Assembly (NCBI RefSeq): GCF_019968905.1
Contig: NZ_CP079946.1
Location: 1,364,001-1,428,000 of the forward strand
Reading direction: 5' to 3'
DNA length: 64,000 nucleotides
Origin: Corallococcus sp. EGB
GTDB taxonomy: Bacteria; Myxococcota; Myxococcia; Myxococcales; Myxococcaceae
This document shows positions 39,554-43,154 of the stretch, piece by piece. Made by a program: the position numbers and the translations under genes. Below the pieces are notes generated by a model. That model saw only the letters and a program-made list of their open reading frames with translations. It ran no database searches and was not told the origin of the DNA. The number at the start of each line of letters is the position of its first letter. The stretch's first letter is position 1.

Positions 39554-40327
39554 TCAGCCCTCGTCCTCCGCGCCCTTGCGCAGGCCCAGCATGCGGCGCA
39601 GCTCGCGCGCGGACTGGCGGCTCACCTCCACCGCGTGACCTCGCGCCGTGCGCGCCAGGTAGCCACCGGTCTCCAGTGGCTCCAGCCGCGTGACGTGCGC
39701 CAGGTTGAGCAGCGCGCGGCGGTGCACCCGGTGGAAGTGCTCGGCGGGCAGCTTGTCCGCCAGCTCGTTGAGCGTGAAGTCGGTGAGGAAGTCGCCCTGC
39801 GCGGTGAACACCGTCACCAGCTCGTCCTCCAGCGACGCGTGGGAGATGGCGTCTGGCGACACCAGCACCAGCCCCTGCCGCGTCGGGATGGGCAGCCGCG
39901 TCAGCGCCGGCTTCTCCGCCGAGGCCACCGGCGCCGTCACCGGAGCGGGCTTCACCCGCGTGGGCAGCCGCGCCCGCGCGCGCTCCAGCGCCTTCTGCAG
40001 CCGCGCCGCCTCCACGGGCTTGAGCACGTAGTCCACCGCGCCGTGCTCGAACGCGTTCACCGCGTGCTCCGCATGGGCGGTGCAGAAGATGACATGCGGC
40101 CCTCCCTCCGGCAGCAGCGCCATCGCGTCCAACCCGCTCAGGCCCGGCATGTGGATGTCCAGCAGCACCACGTCCACGCCGCCCGCGCGCACCGCCGCGA
40201 GCACCGAGTCGCCGTCCACCGCCTCGCCACAGACGCTCACGTCCGGCAGCGCGGCCAGCAGGCGCGCCAGGCGCCTCCTGGCCAGCAGTTCATCGTCGGC
40301 GATGAGGACGCGCAGGGGCTCTCTCAC
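39554..40327 (-). CDS. LytTR-family response regulator
   Basis: 257 residues. Receiver domain 1-120 (DDE at 11-13, phospho-acceptor D57 in VVLLDIHMPG, K in VLKPVEAARL), an Ala/Pro linker, and a C-terminal LytTR DNA-binding domain (HFHRVHRRALLNLAHVTRLE; ARTARGHAVEVSRQSARELR). Start GTG 40327 overlaps the kinase stop as GTGA. It should be phosphorylated by the kinase translated just before it. Its targets are unknown. Confidence 0.93.
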   Translation of the reverse strand: MREPLRVLIADDELLARRRLARLLAALPDVSVCGEAVDGDSVLAAVRAGGVDVVLLDIHMPGLSGLDAMALLPEGGPHVIFCTAHAEHAVNAFEHGAVDYVLKPVEAARLQKALERARARLPTRVKPAPVTAPVASAEKPALTRLPIPTRQGLVLVSPDAISHASLEDELVTVFTAQGDFLTDFTLNELADKLPAEHFHRVHRRALLNLAHVTRLEPLETGGYLARTARGHAVEVSRQSARELRRMLGLRKGAEDEG

Positions 40328-41382
40328 GTGAGGACTCCGGGTTGGGGGCCCTGGCGGGGCAGGGTGACGGTGACACGGGTGCGTCCGTCGGCGCTCTCCA
40401 GCGACAGGAGCGCGTGGCCGCCATACGCCAGCGCCAACCGCCGCTCCACCATGGGCAGGCCCACGCTGCCCTCGCGAGGGCCCTTGGACGCGCCCGGGTT
40501 GTCGATGGAGACGATGACCGCCCCCCCGCGCGCGACCACGCCCACGCTCAACGGGCCCCGGTGGCCGGCCGCCGGGCCGTGCTTCACCGCGTTCTCCGCC
40601 AGCGGCAGCAGCACCAGCGGCGGCACGGGCACGTCCGCCAGGCCGTCCGCCACGTCCACGCGCAGCTGGAACAGGTCCGGGTCGCGCAACAGGTGCAGGT
40701 CGAAGAGCGTGCGCATCAGCTCCAGCTCCTGCGACAGCGGCCAGGAGACGCTGCGCACGCCCGCGAGCACCGAGCGGAGCATCGTGGACAGCCGCAGCAC
40801 GGCGGCCTCGGCGACCGCGCCGTCCTCGCGGCACCACTCCGCGATGGCGTTGAGCGTGTTGAAGAGGAAGTGCGGATCCAGGTGGCTGCGCAGCGCCAGC
40901 AGCTGCGCCTGCTCCGCCTCCCAGGCGAAGCGGGTGGCGCGGGCCCGCTCGCGGGCCAGCGTCTCCTCGAAGCCGATGTCCCGCCCCAGCCCCCAGCCCG
41001 CGACGAGGAACAGGCCGCCGCAGATGGCCAGGTTGTATGGCTCCGACAGGAACGTGGGCTGCATCTGCGTGACGCGCGGCAGGGCGTAGCCCACGGACAG
41101 CACCACGCCGCTGCCCACCGCCGCATAGAGAAGCAGGCGGATGCCCCCGTGGCTCAGGTCCAGCCCTTCCGGGAACAGCACCCGGTACGACACGGGCGCC
41201 ACCGCGACGCACAGGAGGCACAGCAGGAGCCCGAGCCAGAACGCGCGCGGATCCAGGCTCCAGCGCACCTGCGCAGCGAGCAGCGGCAAGGACACCAGGA
41301 CGATGGGGACCAACCGCCACGGCGCGACGAGCGCGCGCAGCGTGGCGCGAACGATGGAGCCTTCCGACGACGTCTCCGGCAT
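40324..41382 (-). CDS. LytS/YehU-type sensor histidine kinase
   Basis: 352 residues. Four to five membrane helices in the first 150 residues with very short loops, then a coiled linker (EETLARERARATRFAWEAEQ) and the His_kinase domain with LDPHFLFNTLNAIAEW (phosphorylated His, about 183-199) and an HATPase_c domain (LLPLAENAVKHG; GSVGLPMVERRLALAYGG). ATG 41382 starts just before the first helices. Partner LytTR regulator overlaps by four bases downstream. A 37-codon hydrophobic peptide gene lies 31 bases upstream on the same strand. Confidence 0.92.
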   Translation of the reverse strand: MPETSSEGSIVRATLRALVAPWRLVPIVLVSLPLLAAQVRWSLDPRAFWLGLLLCLLCVAVAPVSYRVLFPEGLDLSHGGIRLLLYAAVGSGVVLSVGYALPRVTQMQPTFLSEPYNLAICGGLFLVAGWGLGRDIGFEETLARERARATRFAWEAEQAQLLALRSHLDPHFLFNTLNAIAEWCREDGAVAEAAVLRLSTMLRSVLAGVRSVSWPLSQELELMRTLFDLHLLRDPDLFQLRVDVADGLADVPVPPLVLLPLAENAVKHGPAAGHRGPLSVGVVARGGAVIVSIDNPGASKGPREGSVGLPMVERRLALAYGGHALLSLESADGRTRVTVTLPRQGPQPGVLT

Positions 41383-41413
41383 GCGGAAGGCGGATGCTAC
41401 ACCGCCCCGCGTC

Positions 41414-41527
41414 CTACCGCTGGGGGACGGTCGCGGGGACGAACTCCAGGACGAACGTCCCGGCGAGGACCGCGGGGAAGAAGAGGACAGCAAGCATGGA
41501 CAAGAGCGGCGAGCGCAGTGAGAACAT
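41414..41527 (-). CDS. 37-residue single-helix membrane peptide
   Basis: A short open frame starting at ATG 41527 with GGAGG nine bases upstream. The product begins MFSLRSPLLSMLAVLFF, continues PAVLAGTFVLEFVPATVPQR, and forms one hydrophobic helix with a positively charged start, or a signal-peptide-like leader. All but about three codons end in G or C, as in real genes here. It is 31 bases before the sensor kinase gene, so probably in one transcript. It may be a signal or regulator of that kinase; unproven. Confidence 0.55.
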   Translation of the reverse strand: MFSLRSPLLSMLAVLFFPAVLAGTFVLEFVPATVPQR

Positions 41528-41602
41528 GAGGGGCGCCTCCAGTGTCCGTGAAACATGCCCACGCACTCTGGCAGCGACCTGGTGCCCTTGCTGGGAGGGT
41601 TG

Positions 41603-41625
41603 CCCCGGCCGTCGAGGGGCCGGGG
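41603..41625 (-). terminator. GC-rich hairpin after hemG (possible terminator)
   Basis: CCCCGGCC-N7-GGCCGGGG, perfect 8-bp arms, 12 bases past the hemG stop codon. No T tract follows on the minus strand, so termination would be weak or factor-dependent. Confidence 0.35.
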
Positions 41626-41636
41626 TGAGCGGTCGC

Positions 41637-43154
<1,518 letters not shown>

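Follow-up and report, generated by a model that had tools for sequence, protein, structure and literature searches.

We conclude that the reading frame at 41414..41527 is almost certainly a real gene and that its product, the 37-residue peptide MFSLRSPLLSMLAVLFFPAVLAGTFVLEFVPATVPQR, is, very probably, a small LytTR-controlled membrane protein. Positions are those of the window, the whole stretch of 64,000 nucleotides of Corallococcus sp. EGB DNA that was analyzed. The initial annotation had placed a 37-codon membrane-peptide gene at these coordinates, which are correct; the frame runs on the minus strand from 41527 to 41414 (37 codons and TAG), and a plus-strand reading of 41414..41527 gives no membrane peptide. 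The minus-strand gene order is protoporphyrinogen oxidase, peptide, kinase and LytTR response regulator, with the following features:

39554..40327, minus strand: LytTR response regulator, whose GTG start and the stop of the kinase share GTGA
40324..41382, minus strand: AlgZ/LytS-like sensor histidine kinase of 352 aa (PF06580, by domain search)
41394..41399, minus strand: kinase-proximal -10-like TAGCAT, a possible second promoter; TAGGCT or TATGCT in relatives
41414..41527, minus strand: gene of the 37-codon small membrane protein (ATG 41527-41525, TAG 41416-41414), from profile matches and substitution tests
41536..41540, minus strand: Shine-Dalgarno-like GGAGG, with 8 nt between it and the peptide ATG
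41565..41570, minus strand: putative promoter -10-like CAGAGT, the counterpart of CAGACT in Myxococcus
41605..41614, minus strand: LytTR-type half-site 2, CGACGGCCGG; follows half-site 1 at 21 bp and is degenerate in Corallococcus
41626..41635, minus strand: LytTR-type half-site 1, CGACCGCTCA, conserved upstream of the peptide
41637..43040, minus strand: protoporphyrinogen oxidase (TIGR00562), the upstream neighbor, with 1 nt from its stop to half-site 1

Most of what had been read from the letters of this frame holds. The GGAGG is present, at a spacing of 8 nt and not the nine bases first given, and GGAG, AGGA or GAGG precedes the peptide in 48 of 54 homologs. Third codon positions, described as G or C nearly throughout, are so in 34 of 37 codons; the one hydrophobic helix that was claimed corresponds to a single stretch at residues 8-26 (Kyte-Doolittle mean of 2.31); and the peptide stop does lie exactly 31 nt before the kinase ATG (41382), both genes being on the minus strand. 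Judged by hydropathy, all five homologs inspected likewise have a single hydrophobic stretch, which fits a single-pass small membrane protein. In each of 53 homologs, the charge (termini included) is more positive on the N side than on the C side, and the predicted topology is probably N-terminus in, with a short tail outside. Searches of Pfam and NCBIfam with the peptide returned no match at E ≤ 0.001, and we found no literature on it among open-license PubMed Central papers.

The kinase next to the peptide matches PF06580 (E = 6.3e-15) and has about four hydrophobic peaks in its N-terminus (residues 1-135), and the regulator carries PF00072 (Response_reg) and PF04397 (LytTR) domains. The pair is therefore AlgZ/AlgR-like, that type having a PF06580 kinase with a polytopic N-terminus and a regulator with receiver and LytTR domains. 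Regulators of the type also bind CCGTTCG-like half-sites, for which the candidate counterpart here is the motif CGACCGYTCR at the system's own promoter. Of the earlier label, a LytS/LytTR pair, the LytTR part stands and LytS proves too loose: at E ≤ 0.001 no 5TM-5TMR_LYT domain was found in the kinase, His_kinase and HATPase_c alone being reported, so that it is AlgZ-like and not assigned to the LytS family. The best NCBIfam match of the regulator is BtsR, below the cut-off of that family (155.2 of 246 bits). The AlgZ/AlgR (FimS/AlgR) system of Pseudomonas aeruginosa is described as pairing a LytTR-type regulator with an unorthodox kinase, for which four membrane helices are predicted (PMC4064291); the present pair is alike in this, but its candidate targets are genes for the lipid carrier and the envelope. 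The LytTR Regulatory Systems HdrRM and BrsRM likewise are described as combining a LytTR regulator, a membrane protein and direct repeats at their own promoter (PMC6193735); in the present locus, however, the regulator has a receiver domain and an adjacent kinase and the membrane protein is a peptide of 37 aa, so that we do not class it with them. A heme-synthesis gene (41637-43040) adjoins the AlgZ/AlgR-like system, comparable to the algR-hemC neighborhood of Pseudomonas. We know of no such peptide at AlgZ/AlgR of P. aeruginosa.

A profile built from 23 homologs of the peptide matched 55 of 145 genomes of the order at E ≤ 0.001, once per genome (E of 2.2e-7 to 3.0e-19), and none of the 55 matches contains a stop codon. 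The peptide lies directly before the kinase in 50 of these genomes and one gene away in 4, and in 1 no kinase was found; the proposed frame is thus found upstream of orthologous kinases, with conservative substitutions. In a search of 96 family genomes with the single sequence, the peptide was recovered from all 16 Corallococcus genomes, including its own, so that the frame is intact in 16 of 16 genomes of the genus, where disruption in close relatives that keep the kinase had been named as grounds for giving up the gene. We read 70 of the 77 kinase loci in six frames; the peptide is present at 54 and absent from the other 16. The 54 comprise 16 loci in g1 (Corallococcus), 26 in g19 (Myxococcus/Pyxidicoccus), 2 in g5 (Citreicoccus), 3 in g7 (Hyalangium), 1 in g8 (a genus neighboring Hyalangium) and 6 in g3 (Archangium), and the genetically tractable M. 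xanthus (strain AM003) has the peptide. In one of the 54 (G065), the frame breaks off at the end of a contig and gives way to unrelated sequence. By profile, which covered all 96 family genomes, 23 of 77 kinase-bearing genomes, some of them fragmentary, lack the peptide; in G074, negative by profile, a contig end cuts just inside the peptide start. Residues M1, F17, P18 and L21 are invariant, L9, A13 and G23 nearly so, and the conserved part is the hydrophobic helix, the tails being variable. Paralogs elsewhere were considered and rejected, given one match per genome at E ≤ 0.001. The peptide is also not a fixed companion of protoporphyrinogen oxidase, which occurs without it in G035-G038, G031 and G034.

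The amino acid sequence of the peptide is under constraint, with conservative substitutions. We redistributed parsimony substitutions over positions with the same base in 2000 reshuffles, excluding G021 from g1 and G056, G057, G058, G065 and G079 from g19. Scored by BLOSUM, P was 0.0005 in g1 (15 sequences), 0.018 in g19 (21 sequences) and 0.032 in g3 (6 sequences), and 0 of 2000 reshuffles reached the observed value in g7 and g8 combined (4 sequences; P < 0.0005). Scored by nonsynonymous changes, P was 0.022, 0.063, 0.016 and 0.0235, respectively. The test singles out the true frame in g1, g3 and g7+g8; in g19, frame +1 also passes (BLOSUM P = 0.031; nonsynonymous P = 0.023), so that the true frame is not singled out in Myxococcus. 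Pooled pN/pS values (Nei-Gojobori) were 0.50 in g1, 0.83 in g19, 0.49 in g3 and 0.38 in g7+g8. Mean pairwise divergence in g1 was 0.089 for the peptide, 0.184 for the upstream region and 0.100 for the oxidase tail, and the corresponding values in g19 were 0.165, 0.361 and 0.204.

Upstream of the peptide lie two copies of a half-site with the consensus CGACCGYTCR, spaced exactly 21 bp apart, which form a candidate operator of the AlgR/LytTR type. Of 51 peptide promoters, 47 have a pair that scores 17 or more out of 20, and in the whole window, on both strands, one position alone scores that well, which must be the site upstream of the peptide; the remaining four promoters (G060, G069, G071 and G072, all Myxococcus) score 14. 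LytTR regulators are described as usually binding two imperfect direct repeats about 12 bp apart, and AlgR as recognizing CCGTTCGTC, which the half-site here resembles, at sites that need not be direct repeats 12 bp apart (PMC4064291). It is quite likely that the peptide is under LytTR control. Among the 16 kinase loci without the peptide, a pair scoring at least 17 is found within 250 nt of the kinase in 10 (g2, g4 and g26), the g12 score is 16 and those of g6 and g9 are 13. This pattern suggests that an autoregulatory promoter was there first and that the peptide gene was inserted behind it later. A -10-like hexamer occurs in 48 of 50 gaps between peptide and kinase, and the kinase may therefore also be served by a promoter of its own.

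On a tree of 31 of the 77 kinases, the distribution of the peptide takes two changes, in our reading a single gain and a loss in g6, which clusters with Archangium. At all four g6 loci the kinase is present without the peptide, and the oxidase runs almost directly into it, without half-sites. In the six Archangium genomes, peptide and kinase stay together though the regulator is not beside the kinase; no regulator gene adjoins the kinase at the four g6 loci read either, and the regulator of G031 lies on another contig without half-sites upstream. G033 contains a second, partial kinase copy (G033:C1:2291856-2292425) about 8 kb from the kinase. Four Hyalangium genomes (G035-G038) have no kinase, no close regulator ortholog and no peptide, and three congeners carry both kinase and peptide. 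Conversely, in G080, a metagenome-assembled genome, the peptide follows the oxidase and is preceded by a Shine-Dalgarno sequence, but the next gene is unrelated; half-sites, kinase and a regulator ortholog were not found in this assembly, which is 86% complete. The peptide is not an obligate signal, since the kinase occurs without it in outgroups and in one sister genus, and G080 shows the opposite.

Bacterial sugar transferase genes adjoin the peptide or its start in two settings. In all four Hyalangium/g8 genomes, a sugar transferase lies between peptide and kinase, its GTG start overlapping the peptide stop (GTGA). Archangium G002 has, elsewhere in its genome, a promoter much like that of the peptide, followed by peptide codons 1 to 11, which continue in frame into the same kind of sugar transferase (PF02397). 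The arrangement reads as a natural translational fusion of the peptide start; because of this fusion, the peptide start codon is probably used. The promoter and first codons of the G002 gene resemble those of the Hyalangium peptide, though at a different locus, and the sugar transferase has apparently moved there from a Hyalangium-like arrangement.

The exact pattern of the half-site pair occurs in 50 of 96 genomes. It matches 73 times and its reversed control 11 times; many of these 73 matches repeat a single site across related genomes, and 20 stretches were read. Sites found in more than one genome precede uppS (PF01255), a gene for a DUF4153 protein, one for a protein with a weak linalool-dehydratase-like domain, one for an ABC ATPase and one for a protein without a Pfam match. 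Behind uppS at such a site follow a CTP_transf_1 gene and an M50-protease gene. A sugar-transferase site away from the kinase was found in one genome. For uppS, the highest scores (18-19) come from one genome each of Archangium and g6; those of g1, g19, g5, g7 and g8 are 15-17, and that of g2 is 13. Non-matching places in g4 and g26 score 15 as well, which keeps the weak uppS sites of Corallococcus and Myxococcus from being decisive. In the uppS promoter, two or three LytTR-type half-sites follow one another at 21-bp intervals; they are strong in Archangium and in g6, and weak elsewhere. This arrangement suggests AlgR-like control of lipid-carrier supply through the uppS promoter, and the similar pairs before uppS, DUF4153 and sugar-transferase genes hint at control of undecaprenyl-lipid and envelope functions. 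Half-site pairs lie upstream of the DUF4153 and linalool-dehydratase-like genes in several genera, and in the Corallococcus sp. EGB genome two of six one-mismatch sites precede orthologs of the DUF4153 gene (55% identity) and of the dehydratase-like gene (75%). A regulon defined by a looser pattern in this genome was rejected, since up to 2 mismatches gave 45 sites compared to 66 for the reversed control, which is no enrichment. The genome encodes six LytTR proteins, and other regulators could therefore use these sites.

The initial annotation had offered the peptide as signal or modulator of the system; only the second role retains standing, and we tentatively prefer it, at somewhat short of even confidence. 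As we infer it, the neighboring LytTR regulator probably binds the operator, behind which the peptide gene comes first, so that production of the peptide probably goes with activity of the AlgZ/AlgR-like system; most conjecturally, this single-pass peptide would then contact the membrane part of the kinase and tune it by feedback. The position of the gene, the joint absence of peptide and kinase and the survival of the pair where the regulator has moved favor kinase feedback. Against it count the 16 of 70 loci with kinase alone, G080, the sugar transferase abutting the peptide in Hyalangium/g8 and the four promoters that score 14. To our knowledge, small membrane proteins that tune sensor kinases are known from few systems. 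One is MgrB, which inhibits PhoQ in enterobacteria and is likewise described as a single-pass small membrane protein controlled by the system whose kinase it regulates (PMC8404706). An N-in/C-out topology is predicted here as well; in contrast to MgrB, the tail has no cysteines, the gene precedes the kinase and the kinase family is PF06580, and the likeness is one of description.

A possible but doubtful alternative is that the peptide is an effector put out by the LytTR regulon: it would bind an enzyme in the membrane that takes part in making undecaprenyl lipids or polysaccharide, such as an initiating sugar transferase, and adjust it under envelope stress. The retention of the peptide without the system in G080 and the sugar-transferase links, namely the GTGA overlap in four of four Hyalangium/g8 genomes and the G002 promoter with 11 codons leading into the same enzyme, favor this role, as do the further half-site pairs before uppS with the genes behind it, DUF4153 and sugar-transferase genes. 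An initiating phosphoglycosyl transferase of M. xanthus, EpsZ, is reported to be activated by a bound regulator, EpsW, a parallel for this alternative alone and one in which the regulator, unlike the membrane peptide here, is a single-domain response regulator (PMC12802240). However, a search of 18 genomes for the sugar transferase, run with no positive control, gave no match at E ≤ 1e-40, and 13 of these genomes have the peptide; outside the cases named the linkage of the peptide is to the kinase. A further reading, which we consider speculative and unlikely as a whole, is that the AlgZ/AlgR-like system of myxobacteria governs supply of the lipid carrier and of the envelope, through uppS with the genes that follow it, DUF4153 and sugar transferase. 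Its own peptide would then link the kinase with an enzyme of undecaprenyl lipids, so that use of the carrier is reported directly within the membrane.

The remaining explanations fare worse. It is improbable that the short frame is a leader whose translation as such, with no role for the peptide made, adjusts how the downstream gene is expressed. The frame heads a likely operon, overlaps the next gene (GTGA) in Hyalangium/g8, and no clear Shine-Dalgarno sequence was seen by eye before the kinase; yet the amino acid sequence is conserved with conservative substitutions, 32-55 nt separate the peptide stop from the kinase match outside Hyalangium/g8, with a -10-like hexamer in 48 of 50 gaps, and G080 keeps the peptide ahead of an unrelated gene. 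Very improbable is a secreted or processed peptide that the kinase senses, as in Agr- or Com-like systems. The gene does adjoin the polytopic kinase of a LytTR system, but no processing or export gene is among the immediate neighbors (protoporphyrinogen oxidase, kinase and regulator), so that we do not class the locus with Agr or Com, and it is the hydrophobic helix that is conserved while the tails vary; moreover, 16 of 70 kinase loci are without the peptide, and in G080, which has the peptide, no ortholog of kinase or regulator was found. A chance open frame in GC-rich DNA, for which the pooled pN/pS and the passing +1 frame of Myxococcus might speak, is hardly credible against 55 matches free of stops, the BLOSUM reshuffle results in four groups and the natural fusion of the peptide start.

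The preferred reading and its closest alternative thus differ in whether the peptide may tune the neighboring sensor or the cell envelope that this sensor watches. Each M. xanthus genome is reported to have two LytTR members (PMC7694542), and since the peptide is present in this tractable species, its role and the predicted regulon are cleanly testable there. The operator motif is a first handle on the function of the myxobacterial AlgZ/AlgR-like system.
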